The position numbers and the translations under genes are program-made. A stretch of 64,000 nucleotides of DNA, from positions 1-64,000 of the forward strand of contig JAMKCH010078783.1 in the NCBI GenBank assembly GCA_023653785.1. The letters run 5' to 3'. Numbering within the stretch: position 1 is the stretch's first letter; every line of letters starts with the position of its first letter. The notes below the pieces were generated by a model. The model was given only the letters and a program-made list of their open reading frames with translations, made no database searches and was not told where the DNA came from. The stretch is from Ophioderma brevispina (lineage: Eukaryota; Echinodermata; Ophiuroidea; Amphilepidida; Ophiodermatidae). Below are positions 3,130 to 60,810 of the stretch, in pieces.

Positions 3130-3960
3130 ACTAGTTTCCTTACCACGATTTCATTGGACACCCCATAGGGTCACGACACAACATTTTCCATTGTGCGATA
3201 GTAATCTTGCAAGTTGAAACCCCCCCCCCCCCCCGAGCATAAGTCAGATATGTGTAGGAGTAGCCACCCCTGGTTTTGCAGTTATTCTTACTTCCTGCTG
3301 TTCATTTGACACCACCCCAGGGTCACAACATTTTCCATGGTGGAGATATAATCATGAGAAGTCCTCAACAAGAGCTATACACTAAGAGTTTAGGAAGTAG
3401 CACCCCCTGGGTTTGCATTGGATGATAGTATTCTACTACCTCTCACCTCTTTCATTTGACAACCACACTAGGGTCACCACATTTGCGTTGGGGAGATATT
3501 AATCTTGAAATGTCCCCCACATGAGCAAAAGTAAGGACGTTTAGGAGTAGCACCCCGGGTTTGCATTTATAGTATTCTATTACCTTCTCAACTCTTTAAT
3601 TTTGATACCACCATAGAGGTATAACATCTCCGTTTGGGAGATTTCAATCTGAAATGTCCCGCATGAGCACAAGTAAGAGACGTTAGGAGTAGCACCCCGG
3701 GTGTGCATTTATAGTATTCTATACTTTCCACTCTTTCATTGAACCACCATAGAGGCACAAATCTCGTTTGGAGAATTAATCGGAAATGTCCCCAACATAA
3801 TCATAACCAAGAGATGGTTAGAGTAGCAACACAGGAGGTTGCTTTATGTATGCTTTAGTTCCTTGCCTTTCATTTGCACCACCCCAGGGGTCACAACATT
3901 TTCCATTGTCGAGATATTAATCATGAGAAGTCATGCAAAAATCACGTAAAATTCACTAAA
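3130..3960. repeat. ~165 bp tandem repeat inside left palindrome arm
   Basis: About five degenerate copies of a unit that contains a TTTCATTTGACACCACC-like segment, then GGGTCACAACATTT, GGAGATATTAATC, and GGAGTAGCACCCCGGGT followed by GCATTTATAGTATTCTA. Copies are diverged by indels. No coding potential is seen. Confidence 0.75.
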
Positions 3961-4789
3961 ATAGTAAATATGAAACAAATTTATTCAATTGGCAACACTA
4001 TTTTTGAAAAAAACATGTGACCACATTTTAAATTGAGTCCACACGGGGTCCCGGAAAGAAAGATGAAATGCACCAATTTGGTATTTCACATTTGCCAAGA
4101 ATGTAAACAGCCTGGCAACCCAAAAGACTGACCAGAAACTAGAAAAACTATTTTCAATTAAAACATGGGACTGATTAGCATATGAGTTAATACCTTTGTT
4201 GTGGTGGACTACACACCCCCTTTTGATAGTCTTGGTTTGAACACCTGTTTTGTACACCACCAAATCAAACAACAGCCATATAATGCCCATAAGCACATGC
4301 TAACCTAATTTATTGTAAGTAACCAACTCTGTACATCAAATTCTTTTTGAAGGTGTAGTATTTCACAATGACCATTGACAACCTGAGAAAATTTGGTTGA
4401 AATGGACCTAGCATTTATGGCTGTGTTGATTTGGTGTGTGGTACCCAAAACAGGTGTACAAAACAAGACTTATCAAAAGGGGGGGGGTGGGGGAGTACAC
4501 CACAACAAACGGTATTAACATCAATATGGTTAGATCAGTGCCCATGTTTTAATTGAAATAGTTTTTTTTCTCGTTCTGGTCATTCTTTTGGGTTGCCAGG
4601 CTGTTTAACATTCTTGGAAATGTGAAAATACGCAAATTGTGCATTCTAGCTTTTTTTTCTGACCCCGTAGGGACTCAAATTGAATATTTAAAAGTGGTCA
4701 CATGTTTTTTTTCACAAATAGTGTGGCCAAATTGAATAAAGTTTCATATTTCTAAATTTAGTGAATTTTAAGGGTTTTTTGCAGACTTC

Positions 4790-5640
4790 TCATGATTAAT
4801 ATCTCTACAATGGAAAATTGTTGTGACCCCTGGGGTGCGGTGTTTCAAATTGAAAAGAGCAGGAAATAAAGAATTACTATAAAATGCAAACCGGGGGTCT
4901 ACTCCTAACCATATCTTGGTTATGATTATGTTGGGGGACATTTCAAGATTAAATATCTCCCAACGGAAGAGGAAGATGTTGGGACCTCTATGGTGGGTAT
5001 CAAATGAAAGAGTGAGAGAGTATAGAATACTATAAATGAAACCCGGGGGTGCTACTCCTAAACGTTCTTATTGTGCTCATTGTGGGGGACATTTCAAGAT
5101 GGATTCTCCCAAACGGAAGATGTTATGACCTCTAGGGTGGTATCACATGAAAGAGTGAGAAGTATAGAATACTTATAAATGCAAACCCGGGGGTGATTGC
5201 TCACTCCGAAACGTCTCTTACTTGTGCGAATGTGGGGGACATTTCAAGAGTAATATATCACCAACGCAAATGTGTGACCCCTAGGGTGGTGGTCAAAGGA
5301 AAGAGTGAGAGGTATAGATAGAATACTATCAAAAATGCCAACACGGGGGTCGTACTCTAAAAATATCTTAGTTATGCTCGTGTTGAGGACTTCTCATGAT
5401 TAATATCTCCACCCTGGAAAAATGTTGGACCCCTGGGTGGTGTCAATGAAAAAAGAGCAGGAAGTAAAGAATAAATGCAAAAACAGGGGTGCTACTCCTA
5501 AAACATATTGACTTATGCTCGGGGGGGGGGGGGGTTCAACTTGCAAGATTAATATCTGCACAATGGAAAATGTTTGTGACCCCTAGGGTGGTGTCAAATG
5601 ATAATAGTGGAAGTAAGTAAAACTGTTAAGTGGCGTTTAT
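4790..5640. repeat. Mirror copy of the ~165 bp tandem repeat in the right palindrome arm
   Basis: This is the inverted counterpart of the array at 3,130-3,960. It shows GATTAATATCTCC, GTTGTGACCCCT, a TGGTGTCAAATGAAAGAGTG-like segment and ACCCGGGGGTGCTACTCCTA in repeating order. The order of units mirrors the left arm, which supports one palindrome rather than two independent arrays. Confidence 0.75.
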
Positions 5641-13260: not shown

Positions 13261-16200
13261 ACCTGGGAAAAGGTACCTTTGAAAAATAAGGTTGCTCTGA
13301 ATATGACAGTTGTGCACATTCATGTCTATGGTCAGTGCACCATAGGGTTTACACAAAATTTTGATAGTGATTAGACAAGTGATCATACAGCAAATTTAGT
13401 GTCCCTTACAATTATGGCACGATTAGGACCAAGATTTCGGCGAGATTTTTTTCTCGCCAAAATTCTCGCCCAAACGCCATCTGTGGGTTTAAACTGTACA
13501 TTCTAATTCTTATGGATTTTATTGTTTGACGAGAATTTCTTTTTCTCGTTGTTTTTCAAATTCTTATGTTTATTGTTTGGGAGGAAAGGACGAGACTGGC
13601 TTTTGGATTTTTTTCTAATTCTTAGTATTTTATTGTTTGGCGAGAAAAGTGAGGAGAATTATTTTTTCGTTGGTTTTTTAAATTCTTATGATTTATTGTT
13701 GGCGAGAAAAAGTGACGAGGAAATTTTTTCGTGTTTTTAAAATTCTTATGTATTTTAGTGTTTGGCGAGGAAAGGACGAGATCTGCTTTATCGTGGTGGA
13801 TCTTTTCTAATTCTGATGATTTTATGGTTTGGCGAGAAAAGGGACGAGAATTTCTTTTCTCGTGTTTTTTTAATTCTTATGTATTTTATATTTTGCGAAG
13901 ATTTTTTTTTTCTCGCCAAACTCTCACACCCAAACGTCCTCTAGCGGGTTTAACTGTAAATTCTAATTCTTATGTATTTATTGTTTGGCGGAAAAAGTGA
14001 CGAGAATTCTTTCTCGGTGTGTTTTTTAAGTCTTATGTATTTTGTTGTTGGCGAGAAAAGTGAAGAATTTTACTTTTGAGTTGTGGATATTTTTCTAATT
14101 CCTTATGTATTTTATTGTTTGGCGAGGAAAAGTGACGTGAATTTTTTTACCGTGTGTTATTTCTATCTTATGTATTTTATTGTTTGGCGAGAAAGTGAAA
14201 AGAATTTCTTTTTTTGTTGTGTGTTTTTTTAATTGTCGTATTGTATTGATGTTTGTGCGAGGAAGAAAAGGCGCGATAAGGAAAGGAAAAGAAATTCTCG
14301 TCAACTTTTCTCGCCAAACAATAAAATACTTAAGAATTAGAAAAATATCCCCAAAGGAGAATGTAGATCTCGTCACTTTTTCTCGCAAACAATAAAAATA
14401 CATAAGAATTAAAAAAACAAGAGGAAAAGAAATTCTCGTCATTTTAAAAAAACACAAAGAGTAGAGATTCGTTATTGTGGATTTTTTTTTTTCAATTTCT
14501 ATGTGTTTTATTGTCTGCGAGAAAAGTGACGAGAATTCTTGCTCGTGTTGTGTTTTTTTTATTTCTTGTGAATATTTATTGTTTGGCGAGGAAAACGTGA
14601 CGAGTTATTTTCTCCTGTGTTTTTATTCTCGTTTATGTATTTTATTGTTTGGCGCGAAAAAGTGACAAGAATTTCTTTTTTTCGTTGTGTTTTTTTAAAT
14701 TCTTATGTATTGTAATGTTTTGGCGAGGGAAAGGACGAGATCTACTTTCTCGTTGTGGATTTTTTTTAGAATTACGTTTATTTTATTGTTGGCGGAGAAA
14801 AAGTGCACGAGAATTTTTCTCGTTTGTGTGGTTGTTTTTTCTTAATTATGTTTTATGTTGGGCGAGAAAAAGTGACGGAGAATTTCTTTTTCGTGTGTTT
14901 TTTTTCTAATTCTTTGTATTTTATTGTTGGCGAGAAAAAGTGACAAGATTCTGTATCGTTGTGGTTGTTTTTTAGAATTTTATGTATTGTATGTTTGCGA
15001 GGGAGGAAAAGGACGATGATCTACTTTCTCGTTGTGGATTTTTTTTCATAAATTTTTATGTATTTATTGTTTGCGCGAGAAAAAAGTGGACTAAGAAGTT
15101 CTATTGTCGTGGTGTTGTTTTTAAAACTTTTATGCTTTATTGTTGGCGAGAAAAAGTGACAAGAATTTTTTTTATTTATTTAGTTGTGTTTTTTTATAAA
15201 TCTTATGTATGTTGTTGGCGAGGAAAGGAAAAGGACGAAGATCTACTTCTCGTGGGTATTTTTTCATAATTTTTATGTTATTTTATTGTTTGTGGCGAGA
15301 CAAGTGACGAGAATTTCTTTTCTCATTGTGTTTTTTTTTTTCTTACGTATTTTATTGTTGGCGAGAAAAAAGTGACCAGAAAATTTTCTTTTTTGTGTTT
15401 GTGTGATTTTTTTATTTAGGTATTGTCTTGTTTGGCGAGGAAAAGGGCGAGAAAAAGAATTCTCGTCACTTTTTCTCGGCCCAAACAATAAAATACCATA
15501 AGATTAGAAAAATACCACAAGAGAATGAGATCTCGTCAATTTTTCTCGCAAAAATGACAATACATAAGAATTAAAAAAACAAGAGAAAAGAAATCTCGGT
15601 TCATTTAAAAAAACACAACGAGAAGAGATATCGTTGTGGATTTTTTTTCCTATTCTTTGGTTTTATTGTTGGCGAGGAAAAAGTGACGAGAATTTCTTTT
15701 CGTGGTGGGTTTTTTTTATTCTTATGCATTTTATCGTTTGGCGAGAAAAGTACGAGAATTATTTTCTTCCTTGTGTTTTTATTAATTCTTATGTTTTATT
15801 GTTTGGCGAGAAAAAGTGACAAGGAATTTTTTTTTCGTTGTGTTTTTTTTATAAATTTCTTATGTATTGTACGTTGGCGAGGAAAAGGACGAGATCTACC
15901 TTTAGGTGTGGATTTTTTCTATTACGTATTTTTTTGTTTTTGGCGAGAAAAGTGACAAGAAGAATTCTATTTTCGTGGTGTTTTTTTTAAATTTCTATGT
16001 TTGTATTGTTTGGCGAGGAAAAGGACGAGATAGACTTTATCGTTGTGTATTTTTTTCATAATTTTTTATGTATTTTATTGTTTGGCGAGACAAAGTGACG
16101 CGAATTTCTTTTCTGTTGTGTTTTGTTTTAATTCTATGTATTTTATTGTTTGGCGAGAAAAAGTGACAGAATTTCTTTTTTTGTTGTGTTTTTTTTAATT

Positions 16201-16319
16201 TCTTATGTATCCTTTTTATTGTTGGCGAGGAAAAGTTACGGAATTTCTTTTTTTTTTTTTTTAATTCTTATATATTTTATTTTGGCGAGAGAAAAAGCAC
16301 ACGAGAATCAGTTTTCTCA

Positions 16320-17115
16320 GTGGGGGAAACGGGGGGGGGCATAGTATTCTGCTTAGCTGTTTAGTCTCTCCTTCTCTCCTTCTTCGAACATAGCTTTTTT
16401 TTTGTAGCATTCTTATGCCTAACGGCTGGGCGATATTGGACCAAAAATCGACCGACCCCAGATACATCAGGGGGTACCATAGTTTGACCTTTACTTCATA
16501 GGGGGCAATAGAGGTCAAACAAACTCTAAAAATCTTGGAAGCCTACTTAAACGATAAGGTGCAACTTTTAAAAACTTTGCTTGAACTTCTGCATGAGCAT
16601 CGTCATTGGTCAGTGTATACAGCTTGTACACGGAATTAATATCGGAAATCATTAACGTTCAAAATGGCGGCATTATCTAATTATATGCCAAAAAAATGCG
16701 ATTTATCTCAAAATCGATAACACTGGATAGGTGTGCGGTGCCAAAAGTTGCGGGTAATGTCGAGACGAATCAAATGACAGAATATGGCCCAGGGGTCAAG
16801 TTGTTGGAAGATATGCAAAATGAGACTAATAATAGCAAAAACGCTTAAACTCATCAACCAAAGTAGTATTTATGTCAAATGGGTTCACAGGAACCACTGG
16901 GAAAAGCTCTATTTCTTATGTGCACAATATGGGGTCAAAGGTCAAAATGGGGTCATCTAGGGTCAAATATAAAAGAAGCTTTTAGTTGACCTACATAGCT
17001 ATGCAATCGGGTAGGCCATCATGAAAAGTGAAAACGTGTCCACAGTAACCCCGCACTAAGAGCCACCGTTAAGGGTCAAAGGTCAATAGACTTCATCATA
17101 CTGAACGGAATAGTC
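16320..17115. repeat. Non-minisatellite insertion rich in GGTCAAAGGTCA
   Basis: The ~70 bp array is interrupted by ~800 bp unlike it. The insert contains GGGGTCAAAGGTCAAAATGG (near 16,931) and AAGGGTCAAAGGTCAATAG (near 17,070), and resembles the AGGTCA-rich family at 10.9-13.3 kb. Minisatellite resumes with CTTTTCGTTGTG at its right edge. Its ends were not resolved and no coding was seen. Confidence 0.6.
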
Positions 17116-17640
17116 TCCTGGAGTTGTCTAGTTTCTTTTCGTTGTGTTTTTTCGAATTCTTAGTATTTTATGTTTGGCGAGAAAAAAAAAGTGACACGAA
17201 TTTATTTTTGTGTTGTGTTTTTTTAAATTCGTATTGGTATTGTCTGGTTGGCGAGGGAAAGGGCGAGAAAAAGAAATTATCGTCACTTTTTTCACGCCAA
17301 CAATACAGAATACATCGAATAGAAAAATATCCACAACCTGGAGAATGTAGATCTCGTCACTTTTTCTCGCCAAACAATAAAAATAATAAGATTAAAAAAC
17401 ACAACGAGAAAGCAATTCTCGCTCATTTTAAAAAAACACAAACGGAAGATGATCTCGTGGTGGATTTTTTTTCTTAATTCTTATTGTATTTTATTGTTTG
17501 GCGAGAAAAAAGTGACGAGAATTTCTTTTAGCGTTGTGTGTTTTTTTATTCTAGGCATTTTCATTGTTTGGCGAGGAAAAAGTGACGAGAATTCTTTTTC
17601 GTTTGTTTTTTTTAAATTCTTCTGTATTAATGTTTGGTAT

Positions 17641-19602
17641 GGAGCCCGTAAAGGTCAATGAAAATTATTTTTTATCTCGTTTTAACGAATACTCCCAATC
17701 TCATTGGAAGGAGTTTCTATCTGTTTGACGAGTTACTATCTCGTTTGTACGAGTTACTATCTCGTTTTGAACGGAACTACTATCTCGTTTTGAACGAGTT
17801 AGTAACTAGTTTGTACGAGAAACTATCTAGTTTGAAGGAATTTCTTGTTCTCGTTTGTACGAGTTATTTTCTCGTTTGTGTATATGAGGATACCGATCTG
17901 TTTGTACGACAACTATCTCGTTTGGATGACTATTATCGCGTTTGACGAGTGTAAGTCGTTTGTATGAGAGATACATCTCGTTTATACGAACATACTATCT
18001 AGTTGCACGAACATACTATATCGTTTGTCGAGTATGAACGCGATTGACTATCTCGTTTGGACGAGTTATGATCTCGTTTGAACAGATTATTATCTCGTTT
18101 GAACGAGATACTATCTGTTTGAACGAGTCCCCGATTATACGAATTATTAATACGTTTGTATGAGTACTTATCTCGTTGGTACGAGATACTATTTCGTTTG
18201 TACATAACAAATGAAAATACATTCTCGTTGTGGGACGAGTTACTATCTCGTTGTACGAGTTACTATCTTGTAAGAGATATATCTCGTTTTGAAACGAGTT
18301 ACTATCTCGATTGTACGAGTTATTATCTCGTTTGTACGAGTTATCTCGTTTGAATGAGATTCTATCTCGTTTGCAAGATTACTATCTCGTTGTACGGTTA
18401 TTATATGTCTTGAACGAGCTATTATATCGTTGGAAACGAGCTATTATTCGGTTGGAACGAGATTACTATCTTGTTTGTACGACTTATTAACTCGTTGGAT
18501 GACATACTCTCTCGTTGAACGACCTATATCTCTTTTGTACGAGTTAGTATCTCTTTTGAACGACATACTATACCGTTTGGATTGAGATAATAATCTCGTT
18601 TGTACGAGATCAGATTCGTGTACGACATAATGTAATATGTAGTTCTTCAAACGAGTAAAATAGTACAAACAAGATAGTAACTCGTTCAAACGAGATAGTA
18701 TGTCGGGCATTCAAAGAGATAGTATGTCCTACAAACGAGTTAATAACTCGTACAAACGAGATAATAACTCGTCCACACGAGATAGTATGTCGTAAAAACG
18801 AGTCGTATCTCGTACTACAAACGAGCTAGTATTCAATACAAACGATTACTTCGTAAAAAACGAGATAGAACTCGTACAAATGAGCACAGTAACTCGTTCA
18901 AACGTGATAGTATCTCGTACAAACGAGTTAATAACTCTTACCCACGAGATAATAACGCGTACACACGAGATTTGGATGTCGTACAAACGGATAGTATCTA
19001 TTCCTTTGGTACAAACGAGATGGTATATCCTACAAACGAGTTAATCATTCGTCCAAAGGATGTAACTCGTACAACAAACGAGACAGAACACTCGTTTCAA
19101 ACGGCGATAGTATTCGCTTACAAACAAAAACTCGTACAAACAAGATAGTATATCGTCCAAAACGAGATAGATATCGTCAAACTGTACAAACGAGATAGTT
19201 ATGTAGACAAAACTAGATAGTTGTCGTACAAACCAACGATTAGTATCTCATACAAAACGACTTAATAACTCGAACAAACGCGATAATAAGTCGTCAAAAC
19301 GAGAAGTAGTCGTACACACGAGATAGTATTCTCATAAAAAAGAGTTAATAAAACTCGCTACAAACGAGACAGAAAACTCGTTCAAACGAGATAGAATCTC
19401 GTACAAACGAGTTACTAACTCGTACCACCGAAGATAGTAACTCGTTCAAACGATGGATAGTATGTCTACAAACGAGATAGTAACTCGTAACAAACGAGAT
19501 AGTTAACTAGTTCAACACGAGATAGTAACTCGTTCAAATGAGACAGTATCTCGGTTCAAAACGAGATAAAAAAATAATTTTCCATGACCCCTTACGGGCT
19601 CC
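17641..19602. repeat. 1.96 kb foldback array of 21-bp mini-hairpin units
   Basis: The block is bounded by GGAGCCCGTAAAGGTCAATG on the left and its complement CATGACCCCTTACGGGCTCC on the right, each followed inward by an ATTATTTTTTATCTCG-type segment. The left half repeats a 21-bp unit (TCGTTTGTACGAGTTACTATC, written without its last base: TCGTTTGTACGAGTTACTAT). The right half repeats the complement. The switch lies near 18,640. Each unit contains CTCGT-TTGT-ACGAG, a 5-bp stem with a 4-base loop, so hairpins exist at two scales. It is nested in the minisatellite block. Confidence 0.85.
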
Positions 19603-20554
19603 GGAGTTAGGGGAGGAAAAGGCGAGCTCATTTCCGTGTGGATTTTTATAATTTATGGATTTTATGTTTGGCGAGAAAAGTGACGAGAATTCTTTTCTCC
19701 GTGGTGTGTGGTTTTTTTTAATTATGTATTTTATTGTTGGCGGAGCAAAAGTACAGAATTTTTTTCTCGTTGTGGTGGTGGTTTTTTTTAATGAGTTTTC
19801 ATGGTTTTGGCGAGAAAAAGAAAAAGTGACGGAGAATTTTTTTCTCGTTCTGTGTTTTTTTAATATTTTTTATGATTTTATTGCTTGGCAAGGAAAAGGA
19901 CGAGATCTAATTCTCGTTGTGAATTTTTTTCTAATTCTTCTTATGTATTTTAGTGTTTGGCGAAAAAGTGCGATAATACTTTTTCGTTTTTTTTTCAAAT
20001 TCTTATGTATTGTATGTTTGGCAAGAAAAAACTGACAAGAATTTCGTTCTCGTTGTGTTTTTTTTTCTACTTCTTATGTATTTTATTGTTTTGGGCTAGA
20101 AAAGTGACAAGAATTTCCTTTTCGTTGGGATTTTTCTAATTTTTTATGTATTTTATTGTTTGGCGAGAAAAGTGACGAGATTTCTTTTCTTTTTGTGTTT
20201 TTTTCGAATTCGTATGTATTTTGTTTGGCGAGAAAAAGTGACAAGAATTTCTTTTTTTGTTGTGTGTTTTTTTAATTGCTTCTTATTTGTAATTGTTTTG
20301 GCGAGGAAAAGGGCGAGAAAAACATTCTCGCACTTTTCTCTTTTTCTCGCCCAACCTAAAATACCTAAGTGATTAAAAATAATCCACAACGAGAAGGTGA
20401 TCTCGTCACCTTTTTCTCGCCAAACAATAAAATACACAAGGAATTTAAAAAAAAAAACACAACGAAGAAAAGAAATTTCGTCATTTTAAAAAAACACAAC
20501 GAGAAAAGAATTCCTCTCATTTTAAAAAAACCAACGAGCAAGAGATCTCGTTGT

Positions 20555-20750
20555 CAGGCCTTGTCTTTTGATCGTGCTAGTGCGATCGCACACCATCACA
20601 CACTAAATGTTCTTAAGGTGTGCGGTTTTCAGCACACCTAATCTGGTAAAATAATACCCAATTTGATACAAAATGCACACCTACAGCACACCTGACTCAT
20701 CTTCATAAGTTGCTATTTTAGCACGGTAGCATTTTTAAAGACAAGGCCTG
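20555..20750. mobile_element. ~196 bp MITE with CAGGCCTTGTCTTT ends (hAT-like)
   Basis: The element starts CAGGCCTTGTCTTT and ends AAAGACAAGGCCTG, a perfect 14-bp terminal inverted repeat. It sits in the minisatellite and is flanked by CGTTGT on both sides (20,549-20,554 and 20,751-20,756), a 6-bp or slightly longer target duplication. The interior has repeated GTGTGCGG/AGCACACCT words. CAGG termini and a 6-8 bp duplication suggest a hAT-type non-autonomous element; superfamily is an inference. Confidence 0.8.
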
Positions 20751-21723
20751 CGTTGTGGATTTTTTTTCTAATTCTTATGTAATTTTTATGTGTGGGCGAG
20801 AAAAGTGACGAGAATTTCTTTTTTCGTTGTGTTTTTTTTTTATCTTATGTAGTGACTGTTTGGCGACCGGAACAATGGACGAGATCTACTTGCTCGTCGT
20901 GGATTTTTTTTCTAATTCATATGTATTTTTAATTGTTTGGCGAAAAAGTGACGAGAATTTCTTTCTCGTGTTTTGTTTGTTTATTATGTATTTGTTTGGC
21001 GAGAAAGGGACGAGAATTTCCTTTTCTCGTTGTGTTTTTTCTAATCTTATGTATTTTGTTGTGGCGAGAAAAGTGAAAAATTTCTTTTTTCGTTGTTTTT
21101 TTTTAATTCTTATGTTTTCTTTTTGGCGAGGAAAAGGATGAGATCTACTTTCTGCGTTGTGTATTTTTTTCATATTTTTAGTTTTTTTTTTTTTTTTTTA
21201 ATTTTTTAGTTTTTTTGTGTGTGGTTGTGTGTTTTTTTTAAATTCTTATGTATTTTATTGTTTGGTGAGAAAAAGTGACAAGAATTTCTTTTTTCGTTGT
21301 GTTTTTTTTAATTCTTATGTATTTTATTGTTGGCGAGGAAAAGTGACGAGAATTTCTTTTCTCGTTGTGTTTTTTTTTCTAATTCTTATGTATTTTATTG
21401 TTTGGCGAGACAAAGTGACGAGAATTTCTTTTCTCGTTGTGTTTTTTTTTCTAATTCATATGTATTTTATTGTTTGGCGAGAAAAAGTGACGAGAATTTC
21501 TTTTCTCGTTTTTTTTTTTTTTTTTTTTAATTCTTATATATTTTATTGTTGGCGAGGAAAAGGACGAGATTCTACTTTCTCGTTGTGGATTTTTCTAATT
21601 ACTATATACTTTATTGTTTGGCGAGAGAATAGTGTTCCTTCTCATTGTTGCATTAATCAAGACGGGAAAAATATTTTTTACAAAAAAAGTGTCCCGAAAA
21701 AAACCCGGTCCTAAATCGTGCCG

Positions 21724-22813
21724 TAATCAATTAACATGACATTCAAACAGATGTCTGGCCTAGTCATCAAATGTTATTGATCCCCATGCTAGGTTCGTGA
21801 TATTTGAGCACAATATTGGCCTCTCGTTGTATTGTTTTTTGGATTAAATGTTTTATATTTTACACAATCATTTTTATTAAAGATGTCTTGTAATTCTAAG
21901 ACTTTTCTATGACTTTTAGATAATTTAAACACTTTTCCATGATTGTCAAGTGCTGGAAAAATGCATCAAAAAAAAAGATTCCTTCAGTTTAGAGGTTATA
22001 AATCAAATCCCACTCTAGAAGTTCAGGGAGGTTTTTTGAAAAAAGTTTTTTCTAATTTGAAGGGTGCTGAATCAGGAATTTTTGTGTTCAACCTCGGGAA
22101 ATGTGGTGAACTTTGTAAATAGGGGGTAAAAGTAATGTAGGTAAATTAGGACAGGGGTAAATTTGAAATCAAGTCAAATTGTGTTTAAATGTACACCAGT
22201 GTATTTGTCTCATTTTAAGGATTTAAAAAAGGTATAGTTTGAAGATAGTGAATTGCAAATACATCCCCGTATTTTAGTATGATTTATGTTACCCAGGACA
22301 GCATGGTCAGCTGTTGTTAATATGTGCTATCCAAGGCTGACTGAACAGAGGCCCTTGGTAGGTTAGCATGCCTTACCACATAGTGTGTGGTATGGTGGTA
22401 TGTAAAAAGTTTGTTGTTGTTTTTGGCAATTCCATTTAGTGTTCCGGCGCCCCAGAAAAAGGAAAACAAAAATGCAAAAATGAGGCCTTTCCACCCCAAG
22501 AACCAGAACGCCACTCACATATATGTTGCTAAAATAATATTGCAGCACATCCTGCAACGCCGGCAGGGCAATTGGGTCTTGGGGGGGGGAAAGGGTTGAA
22601 ATTATGGGAACATTTTAATTACCATTGAAGCCTGTATTATAACTTTACATAAACCCGACTTTTGGGAATTTATGTGGGATTTTTTGAAAACCAGCAAAAG
22701 GGTAAAAATTTGGGAGCATGTCGCTATGATTATGCAAAACGTGTCAAGTTCATCCGTTCTCATGAAAACTATAGAGGGCAATCCTTCATTCCTTATCGCG
22801 GCGATGCTCCTTT
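21724..22813. other. Unique sequence, no gene seen
   Basis: AT-rich sequence with no splice-supported exon. The overlapping 60-70 codon openings on both strands at 22,317-22,850 show no family resemblance. Confidence 0.5.
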
Positions 22814-23246
22814 GGTTCCAATTGAACTTCAACCTTTCAGATGAGGTCAATTTACATTTTCAGCCTATTTTACAACTTGACCTCACATGACCTTTGACCT
22901 TGGTATGTGACCTTTGACTCATTCAACAAATGAGGGATCACATGTTGACTACGGAACCAATTGGTTCCAATTGAACTTCAACCTTTCAGATGAGGTCAAT
23001 TTACATTTTCAGCCTATTTTACAACTTGACCTCACATGACCTTGACCTTGGTATGTGACCTTTGACCTAATCAACAAATGGGGGATACCAAGTTGCACCT
23101 GTGACAGAAGTTTGGTTAAATCCATCAAAGTATGTGGATATTACAGCAAATGTTAACCCTTTTCACCAACAACAGACAACAAACAACAGACATCAACGTG
23201 GACAAAGCGGATCCCTATGTATCTGCTGTCGTAAGGCAGGCGACAC
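22814..23246 (-). repeat. Dispersed repeat family C, copy 1, with internal duplication
   Basis: A ~150 bp segment starting GGTTCCAATTGAACTTCAAC occurs twice (22,814 and 22,963), each with TGACCTCACATGACC and TATGTGACCTTTGACC. It is followed by TCCATCAAAGTATGTGGATA and ends near GTAAGGCAGGCGACAC. The same sequence in opposite orientation lies at 60,370-60,640 inside the DZANK1 gene. TGACCTTTGACC is the complement of an AGGTCA direct repeat. Strand is set by calling the 60 kb copy forward. Confidence 0.75.
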
Positions 23247-24310
23247 AAAAATGAGTGCTACAAGCGAAATACACCTTTAATCACTTCCATACACAATTAA
23301 AGAAGAAATATACTTTGTTTAGCGAATATGAAATTATGTTATACTGTACAAGGAAAATATTACATTGTATTTAGTTTCCACCTTGTTGTTGATTATCTCA
23401 AAACACTAAAAAGCAAATTCCAAAACTTGTGAAAACATTTTCGATTCATAATTCTCAATTTACAATTCATATGAAGAGGTTGCCTTTCATCAAGGCATTG
23501 CGCTTTTTTTTTTTTTATTTGCTACAGTACTGTGTTGATGTGTAGTTAAGCGCCCTTCATTGGGATATCTGTGCATTGCTTTCCTCATTTATTTTATGTA
23601 TTTGACATTTTTGTTAAATTCTTATTTTCCGGGTAAATTTTCCATAACTTTCCTGCATGGGAACTGATTGGGCAATACACACTTCTGACCATTGTGGTCA
23701 AAGAAATGTGATTTACTTCTCGTCTGGCGGCAATTGGTTTTATGCAACTGTCAGGCATTCGTATTGTGCCTGTGGTTGAAGAAAGTGTTTGGTTGACAGA
23801 AGTTTGGCAGAGTGCAATAAATAGATCCTTACTGGGGATAGATAATCCCCATTATGATGACCACAAAATACTTTGACACATTATTCTTGCACAGAAAGTA
23901 TGCCTATTTGCGCAAAGATGGCTTGCTCCGCTCGGCCACGGTCTTTGCCCTTGACACATGGCTCCAGCGATCCTAGCTGTCCCCGCTTGGAAAAATTTTT
24001 GAAGTGGTCTTTGACAAGACTAATATAAAGGGGTGACAGTGATCATCATAGATGGGAATGATCAGACAATTTGTAATATGTACTGAAAAATTCGCTAATT
24101 TAGAAGTATTTTGCTATTATGAAAGAAAAACCTGTAATTTGTAACAAAATGAGGGTTTGATCAGGCACTCTAGTTGGGCCAGAAACAAGAAAGCATATAT
24201 AAAATGTGCCCCAAACTCACCTACTTCAAAGCACAGGAGTGATTCCAACTTGTGACCGCTGACAACTCTTGCCGTCATATTTGCAGGTTCCTGGAGATAT
24301 TGGCAGTGTT
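23247..24310. other. Unique sequence, no gene seen
   Basis: No convincing exon or repeat was recognised. A short T-tract lies near 23,507. Confidence 0.45.
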
Positions 24311-34400: not shown

Positions 34401-36119
34401 GTCATTTTACGCCTAAAATAAAAATGTAGAAAGGCCAACACCCCATACTTGATGTACACCCCATGGTGGTATGATTCCACTAGGTTGGACCTTGTAACAA
34501 ACAACGCCGACAAAATCATTTTTTTGATCATTGGCCGCCGTCTATCTCTCTCATTGACCATCTCTCCCCGTACTTCCTCCCCCTCTAATTCTTTCTATTG
34601 CCCCGGCACCATTTCCCCCTCTACAATTACTTTTCTTTCCCCCTCTCTTCTCGCCACCCTTCAGTTCATCCTTTTTTCATCAATATTTGCTTTTACGTTT
34701 GAACCGAAATGGCGATGTCTACATTATGATTTGACTGCCGCCACTGGCACCGCCTGAACTCGCCATGTACATAGAAATTATATATAAACTATAATATAAA
34801 AATAAATAAGTATATATATAGGCCTACATCAATATCACTTGGATCACACACATTAATTGCCCATGCTACTTCATTCAGTTTCCACACGCACTCTGTTTAA
34901 TCGGCTGCGCTCGTTTTAATTTTACAGCGTTTAGCCTGTGTGCATGAGTTTCACTTGTGCCTACCAATCAACCAAACAAACCTCGTCATATTGCGTATGT
35001 TTTACCGGTTACACACGATTTAATTGATCTTCCGAACTACTCTTACATTAGCATTGTGTAAATGAGGGTTTTAAGAACAGTAAGGAAAAACTATGTTGTT
35101 TAACAAAGTATCGCCCTCTACAAAGTTCAGCTGTTCCTCCATATCTGGCTGCTTTGTTTGAAATTGCTGTGGTTACGAATGTTTATTACTAAGTTTTTTA
35201 AAAATGAAAGAAAAACAGTTTAAAACAATCGGGTAACGGTCGCACAACACATTGTGCTTTAAGAAATATGGCTTAGGCTAATTAATGAAGTGCGCCACTA
35301 ATTATGACGTCACTGACGCCGGTGACCGTTCGTGAACCAGGTTTGGCTTGATGACTCATCATGCTCATAGAAGGTTTTTTCTGAATAATCCACAATGGTC
35401 AATGTATTTACCCCTGCGGCAGTTCGATGAATAAATTTTCCAGCATGATACCTTACTGATCCTCGCAAAATCAACGAAAACGGCCGACTCCTTGCATTTT
35501 TTGTGAAAAAGCTATGCTTTCCCCATAGATTTATGAATTTTGACATCTTAAAAACCTGATACGGGGAGCTCTTGTAATTAAATTTTCGAATTAGGTACGA
35601 AATGAACACTAATTAGATCGGTAAACTACAGCACATTAGCTGCGTGATAGCAGTCCTTGCATTTTAGTCGGGTTTTTGTTTTAGAGGTCGGATGCAATAT
35701 TCACTGTGTTTTCCCTCCGAGGAAAATTTCAGAATTGTATTTTCCCTGTCGTAACCGCCCACGTGACCATCGTGGCGCAGTAGCAATGTTTGAATGATGT
35801 ATAAAATACTGTTTGAAATAATTATAATATTTTTCATATATTGGTTTTACAAGAAATAAAAATCTACATACTAGTTTCCCACTAATTATTTATTATTGAT
35901 TGTTTCATGGTAGACCTTGTATGGAATTACTTTGAAATGCGTATATATTTGGCATGTGCATGCACTAAATAATCCCCATCTCGAGTCCTGATAACCTACA
36001 TTCGGAATCATGACCGCAAACCCTGGGTGCCCCTGGGATTGTATGCCAGCTTGCGGCGTCACCACTGAAAAACATTTGGAAAAAGGCCAAGTGGCTGAAT
36101 TGACTTGGGACAACACTCT
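34401..36119. other. No supported gene; pyrimidine-rich segment at 34,560-34,690
   Basis: A CT-rich stretch similar in composition to 29,990-30,315, then AT-rich sequence. A TGACGTCA octamer lies at 35,305-35,312. The 99-codon - strand opening at 35,310-35,609 has no recognised domain. Confidence 0.4.
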
Positions 36120-38819: not shown

Positions 38820-38905
38820 GGGGGGGGGGGGGAGGGGGGAAGGGGGGTGTGGGGGGGGGGCGGGGGGGGAGACGGGGAGGGGGGGGGGGGAGGGGGGGGG
38901 AACCC
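38820..38905 (+). repeat. ~85 bp near-pure G tract, G-quadruplex prone
   Basis: Nearly uninterrupted guanine with single A, T or C breaks, giving more than four G-runs of at least six on one strand. It easily satisfies G3+N1-7 rules. Exact run lengths are unreliable. Confidence 0.8.
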
Positions 38906-40527: not shown

Positions 40528-40530
40528 GTC

Positions 40531-40558
40531 CCCCCCCCCCCCCCCCCCCCCCCCCCCA
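40531..40558 (+). repeat. Poly-C tract
   Basis: About 27 consecutive C at the outer edge of the foldback. Length is uncertain. Confidence 0.75.
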
Positions 40559-59842: not shown

Positions 59843-60369
59843 GTAAGAATCTACACACAGAATTTCAAAAGAGTTCAAATGTACAGGTAAGAAGAAAAAA
59901 AGAGCCCCATTTTAAGAAGGATATTTTTTAAAGGGCCTCATTTAGTTTACTAAAGTGCAAAGATAATTGTGCACAAACCATTAGGTAGTTGCTTATATGT
60001 ATCATTTAAGATACATCAACATTGGTGAGAATTGAGTTGATTGGTTTTATTTGTAAAGCTACAATCATGGAAAACAGGTTATACACTTTTTGTCCATGTT
60101 GATTTTGAGCCATCATCTTTTATCCTCTTCAGGTCCCTGATATGTTGATGAAGTGATGGAGGAGACAAATATGGTAAAGGCCAAGACCTTACTTCTGATG
60201 ACATTACTTGCCCCAGGTCATAATCAGTTGCAAGAAGGGACCGATTCTCATATAATTATACCAAATTGTTCCAACTATTTTTTCCTATTATCGTACCAGG
60301 TTGTCCCCACGGTTACATGAAAAGTTTGATTTCAAATGCAATTAAAAGGATTGAAAATAGTATTTTTGT

Positions 60370-60640
60370 GTTGCTTGCCTTAAACAGAACACATAGGGAT
60401 CACTTTGTCCCGTTGATGTCTGTTGTGCTGTTTGTTGTGAAAAGGGTTAACATTGCCTGTAAGTCCACATACTTTGATTGATTTATACCAAACTTGGGTC
60501 ACAGGTACAAAATGGCATCCCCCATTTGTGTTTGAGGCCAAAAGTCACCATACCAAGGTCAAGGTCATGTGAGGTCAGTTGTAAAATATGCTAAAATTAA
60601 AATTGCACCTCATTTTGAAAGTTAGAAGTTCAAATGGAAT
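60370..60640 (+). repeat. Dispersed repeat family C, copy 2, in DZANK1 intron 8
   Basis: Inverted partner of 22,814-23,246. ACATAGGGATCACTTTGTCC, TTGATGTCTGTTGT, TCCACATACTTTGATTGATT, ACCAAGGTCAAGGTCATGTG and AGAAGTTCAAATGGAAT match its complement in order. Confidence 0.75.
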
Positions 60641-60810
60641 AAAACTTGGTTTATGGCGTTTACATGCAAACCTCATTTTGTTAATGAGGTCAAGGTCACA
60701 ATAGCAAGTGTAAAGTGGCGGGTGGGTCACATATCACGGTCACAAGGTCACGATATCAATGTCAAAGGTCCACATTCAAGGTCAAGGTCATGGAGGCCTA
60801 TCATTCACAA
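60641..60810 (+). repeat. AGGTCA-rich segment
   Basis: Contains at least seven GGTCA words, including GAGGTCAAGGTCA and TCAAGGTCAAGGTCATGG, in about 160 bases directly after the family C copy. It may be part of the same repeat. Confidence 0.55.

Follow-up and report, generated by a model that had tools for sequence, protein, structure and literature searches.

Is the 8.3 kb block of short repeats in the first 64,000 nucleotides of Ophioderma brevispina contig JAMKCH010078783.1 (this whole stretch is the window of our analysis) an ordinary local minisatellite, or is it a mobile element with repeats for an interior? The question arose from an inspection of the letters alone (hereafter the sequence-only reading), which noticed matching inverted termini around ~70 bp units and proposed a mobile or amplifying satellite unit. 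Our answer, to which we assign a probability of about 0.9, is that the block is a copy of a family of non-autonomous cut-and-paste DNA transposons with short inverted ends and a central minisatellite of ~70 bp units. It is a single copy of a dispersed mobile-element family, and its ends enclose little but short repeats. It is a genuine mobile element; transposons with a minisatellite interior were known before, and this family is a new one among them.

The search space was the 2.51 Gb assembly with its 65,844 contigs. The termini, TGGCACGATTAGGACC at 13415-13430 and its inverted partner GGTCCTAAATCGTGCC at 21707-21722, are present around the units as described and are not found here only: with one mismatch allowed, the terminus pattern occurs at 95 assembly sites, against 2 for the reversed pattern. 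Searches with the end regions gave 76 candidates for the 5' end (window 13415-13520), 71 for the 3' subterminal region (E3) of the window, and 84 for E3 of the copy L036; in each case the best 40 were scored, own copy included. Sequence was fetched around 3' ends at 20 places; in 10 of them the two ends flank unit arrays in the correct order, as in the window, and flipped units recur among the copies; the proposal of a mobile element with inverted ends and a repeat interior is thus borne out. These two-ended copies measure 549, 703, 776, 1342, 1411, 1418, 2471, 2644, 3213, and 8208 bp, a range of 549 bp to 8.2 kb that contradicts the idea of a fixed 8.3 kb amplifying unit, and the number of recognised units per copy runs from about five to about ninety. 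Ten further contigs have both ends in order by coordinates alone. Exact unit 36-mers occur 40 times on 19 contigs; 32 of these 40 lie no more than 3.1 kb from a listed end, on 15 contigs, and C56660, the one contig read of the four without a listed end, carries both end regions.

Insertion is proven by two empty sites. The copy in C47536 is inserted in a high-copy host repeat, and its insertion point is crossed by 38 other listed places. Fourteen of the 15 that were fetched hold CTTCCAAT once with nothing inserted, and the last has CTTCCAGT instead. In the filled site CTTCCAAT flanks the copy at either end, beyond CATCTA and TATCTA: an 8-bp target duplication. Of 38 other listed places, 37 cross the junction of the window copy. 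Fifteen were fetched, of which 13 have CCTTAACATGAC (CTTAACATGAC) and two have versions with one change each, CTTCACATGAC and CTTGACATGAC. Compared with its own empty site the inserted DNA is 13409-21730; the inverted ends of the sequence-only reading exist, but the true ends of the element lie 6-7 bp outside those first drawn.

Family-wide, the ends form a 23-bp imperfect terminal inverted repeat (TIR), CATCTATGGCACGATTTAGGACC at the 5' end and a 3' end that equals TAGATACGGCACGATTTAGGACC on the other strand, with 70-100 bp of subterminal sequence at each end of the copies. CATCTA stands directly before TGGCACG in 16 of 42 copies, and TATCTA directly after GTGCCG in 26 of 46. Because the empty sites of C47536 hold neither hexamer, both belong to the element. 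No terminus was found in two of 44 five-prime stretches, and a second group of 5' ends has CACT or CACC, then TATGG (40 stretches, with C622 fetched twice). Very short derivatives occur as well: a 41-bp remnant in L135 consists of both termini fused, between AGGTGGTA and AGGTGGTT, and a 74-bp minimal copy in C622 (L131, 22-95) has two 5' ends face to face and no flanking duplication.

For a test of target duplication across the family 22 end pairs were assembled, two of which were dropped since a terminus could not be placed. With 2 bp of play in either direction, all 8 of 8 flank bases match in 4 of the 20 remaining pairs but in none of 380 mismatched ones (permutation p 0.0001); with the ends fixed, this holds for 2/20 versus 0/380 (p 0.0012). 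Across 35 pooled duplications the only target preference is A+T richness. As in TIR DNA transposons (class II), then, terminal inverted repeats are found at both ends, copies are dispersed at unrelated sites, and the duplication has a fixed length, 8 bp at C47536. The duplication at C47536, together with the exact duplications in 4/20 against 0/380 pairs, argues for a non-autonomous cut-and-paste transposon and against a TA-target element.

Several observations weigh against the transposon reading. The window copy and its empty site have only TTA in common, and as TTA alone stands on both sides this copy shows no 8-bp duplication; decay, faulty insertion, or recombination between copies could be responsible. 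An exact duplication is absent in 16 of the 20 end pairs, the window's included. One of the four exact pairs, C58181, joins 5' and 3' ends in opposite orientation: both ends (34411-36030) are flanked by the same 8-mer, TCTGCTAC, which suggests that part of the element was inverted after insertion. The other 10 of the 20 fetched regions show one end or a partial second end in the stretch read, and the interior of L044 is mostly non-array (861 of 2471 bp are array). Lastly, no transposase or autonomous copy was found at three terminus sites with an early-departing interior that were read 4 kb inward, where four frames were scanned with Pfam.

Two candidates for the autonomous partner, both with many open reading frames, were rejected: the frames of L052 are reverse-transcriptase-like by our own reading, with no transposase, and L039 turned out to be two 3' ends in inverted order (C14200, 4854-5240). 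TATCTA lies on the outer side of both, and one is crossed by an open frame. A 289-residue frame near the terminus site in L173 carries a beta-helix domain (PF13229, E 1e-6) and probably belongs to a host gene.

Other explanations must be set against the same data. An ordinary local minisatellite with look-alike flanks, or an assembly artefact, would agree with the indel noise of the assembly and with the lack of a period in the unit identity of the window; it is hardly credible, as these ends and arrays are shared by many contigs whose flanks are unrelated, and the existing empty sites refute it. TA adjoins both 16-mers in the window, and the check suggested by the sequence-only reading, to look for empty sites with a single TA, implies a TA-target (Tc1/mariner-type) element; a TA target is expected of Tc1/mariner. 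The empty sites rule this out: those of the window copy read CCCTTAACATG, without any sequence that TA duplication predicts and with only TTA in common with the copy, and C47536 duplicates 8 bp, so that we regard such an element as highly improbable.

A rolling-circle element of the Helentron type, with a minisatellite at its centre as known from bivalves and flies, is very unlikely. Helentrons leave no target duplication on insertion, whereas here one empty site shows 8 bp duplicated, 4 of 20 end pairs have exact duplications, and true inverted repeats form the very ends of the element. In its favour, the Helitron/Helentron elements of Crassostrea gigas, according to excerpts of PMC12628747, have central tandem arrays that vary in length and orientation. 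A tyrosine-recombinase (Crypton-like) element is suggested by the joined ends, which form a 16-bp inverted repeat around GTATCTAT with ATCTA beside both ends, and by the frequency of CATCTA before the 5' end (16/42) and of TATCTA after the 3' end (26/46). Its chances are very slim. Where a Crypton inserts, a short core would be common to element and empty target, and no target duplication would arise; at C47536, the one cleanly tested site, this is refuted, since the empty sites are without either hexamer (ATCTA is absent) and the duplicated part is CTTCCAAT. The two inverted-order 3' ends of L039 have TATCTA at each.

For the interior of the transposon copy in the window, arrays were parsed by a Viterbi model with two unit variants; an earlier anchor-motif decomposition was dropped for poor recall. 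By this model ~70 bp units make up 4959 of 8309 bp, with 770 bp on the minus strand, and 16291-17131, 17641-19602, and 20555-20750 are left as non-array. The same parse gave zero on a shuffled array piece, on the 16.3-17.1 kb spacer, and on a 3 kb control stretch elsewhere in the window. The resulting order of features is as follows.

13406-13408, no strand: TTA, the final three bases of the target on the left side, present again at 21731-21733 (15 fetched empty host-repeat copies)
13409-13430, plus: 5' TIR; family consensus CATCTATGGCACGATTTAGGACC, window copy CAATTATGGCACGATTAGGACC (sequence, empty-site comparison)
13431-13500, plus: 5' subterminal region E5 (genome matches of 13415-13520)
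13501-14282, plus: forward unit array with an interruption at ~13890-13963, where the E5 interior appears a second time (unit parse)
14283-14466, minus: flipped block 1 (unit parse, block alignment)
14467-15452, plus: forward unit array (unit parse)
15453-15628, minus: flipped block 2 (unit parse, block alignment)
15629-16290, plus: forward unit array, the last unit variant of which adjoins the 3' end in copy L036 (unit parse)
16291-17131, no strand: non-array stretch, 841 bp (unit parse)
17132-17268, plus: forward unit array (unit parse)
17269-17452, minus: flipped block 3 (unit parse, block alignment)
17453-17628, plus: forward unit array (unit parse)
17641-19602, no strand: nested foldback, ~1 kb inverted arms of 21-bp units (ACGAGTTACTATCTCGTTTGT), ends GGAGCCCGTAA (sequence)
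19613-20313, plus: forward unit array (unit parse)
20314-20551, minus: flipped block 4 (unit parse, block alignment)
20555-20750, no strand: nested 196-bp insert, inverted ends CAGGCCTTGTCTTT, CGTTGT flanking both sides (sequence)
20751-21625, plus: forward unit array (unit parse)
21626-21706, plus: 3' subterminal region E3 (genome matches)
21707-21730, minus: 3' TIR; family consensus GGTCCTAAATCGTGCCGTATCTA, window copy GGTCCTAAATCGTGCCGTAATCAA (sequence, empty-site comparison)

The four orientation flips noticed at the outset were all recovered, and minus-strand blocks are present in 8 of 15 parsed sequences. Flip junctions recur within copies. L045 shows the same right junction six times; L040 has one right junction that occurs three times and one left junction that occurs twice; and the window has a left and a right junction with two occurrences apiece. 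The four flipped blocks of the window align across both junctions with a mean column identity of 71%; the left junction of block 1 carries an insertion and the right junction of block 4 additional sequence. All four have the look of a single inversion that was copied inside the array. In L040 the order AABABaa AABABaa shows a seven-unit block duplicated together with its flip. The higher-order unit of ~1.17 kb that had been hinted at fares less well: the first two flips of the window do start 1167-1170 bp apart, but the period is weak. The spacing of flip starts is 1167, then 975 and 1061 bp after subtraction of the 841-bp and 1984-bp non-array stretches, and no higher-order period appears in the window copy, where mean unit identity is 0.75-0.78 at all lags from 1 to 24. 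Unit identity in L040 is 0.899 at lag 7, no higher than at lags 14 and 20.

Two copies in tandem in C28285 show 88 mismatches against 159 gap letters in an alignment of 2262 columns, and from this excess of gaps part of the difference between units probably is assembly or sequencing noise. Noise does not account for the flips or the ends, which recur across contigs. The unit folds into a hairpin of -6 kcal/mol versus -2.8 for shuffles, of which 2 in 200 were equally good, and this palindrome is where the flips likely originated, by template switching or inversion. Each unit also contains a 15-bp word found in the 5' subterminal region, with exact matches in L174. Array units in C16750 (20444-25466) are fused to internally placed 5'-end copies that lack their first bases, so that duplication of the array can take an end along.

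Of the nested inserts, the foldback at 17641-19602 is real: each of its two ~1 kb arms contains about 33 21-bp units. It has the structure of foldback elements, with long inverted arms of tandem units, and no match within the 20 other fetched family loci. The insert at 20555-20750, judged by its ends and flanks, looks like a small nested transposon. Elsewhere in the window, arrays of ~142-150 bp units at 3149-5625 stand in inverted relation (3279-3904 versus 5625-4971) and form a second foldback-like structure. Positions 22812-23252 and 60362-60708 are inverted relatives with about 80% identity, probably of a separate repeat family, and long G and C runs lie at 38820-38900 and 40530-40557.

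From these data a mechanism may be sketched. A transposase supplied from elsewhere would recognise the ends, excise the element, and paste it in at a new place, where insertion would usually duplicate 8 bp of target, as seen at the sites described. The length of the array would shift through gain and loss of unit blocks, in keeping with the observed copy lengths, 549 bp to 8.2 kb. The most likely source of flips would be the unit palindrome, through inversion or fold-back template switching, after which they would be copied inside larger blocks, as their shared junctions indicate. As the units repeat the 5' subterminal word and have a strong hairpin, the array possibly is not passive cargo. 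We mention, as a doubtful extension, that the minisatellite might have arisen when the element amplified a subterminal motif of its own to which the transposase binds, that array length and flipped modules might tune mobilisation, and that hairpin-driven inversions might be spread by transposition. In any case the family is an example of a minisatellite that spreads in a genome by forming the inside of a transposon, and with its range of unit numbers and its recurring flip junctions it could be used to date and order the growth and inversion of arrays.

No description of the family was found in a partial literature search, and we do not claim that it is unpublished. Among known superfamilies, hAT shares the 8-bp target duplication, and A is the second base of both ends; hAT ends follow the consensus YARNG, with G as fifth base, whereas the ends here, CATCT and TAGAT, miss it and have T in fifth position. 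The 8-bp duplication would also fit the P element superfamily. Unlike foldback elements, the outer element has short ends and a central array and no long terminal inverted repeats of tandem repeats. Tetris, a foldback transposon of Drosophila virilis, is similar in being non-autonomous, in having internal tandem repeats of variable number, in that its autonomous partner was not found, and in target duplications of 8-10 bp, as far as the excerpted text of PMC4079207 tells; its repeats, however, sit in long terminal inverted repeats, while the present family has 23-bp inverted repeats and a central array. The Crassostrea gigas Helitron/Helentron elements likewise carry central arrays that differ in length and orientation between their ends (PMC12628747, in part), but they are rolling-circle elements, and the family described here has an 8-bp duplication and terminal inverted repeats. 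The conversion of transposons into tandem repeats has been reviewed (PMC6947457, in part; see also PMC5844308, in part). Finally, miDNA4, a satellite-carrying miniature inverted-repeat transposable element (MITE) of Xenopus tropicalis (Scalvenzi and Pollet; PMC12628747, PMC9659126), is, in the excerpts of these sources, likewise short and non-autonomous; this DNA transposon has inverted ends, between which lies a tandem array whose copy number varies. It is assigned to Tc1/mariner (PMC12628747), whereas our family duplicates 8 bp, and flipped blocks like those of the window go unmentioned for miDNA4 in the same excerpts.

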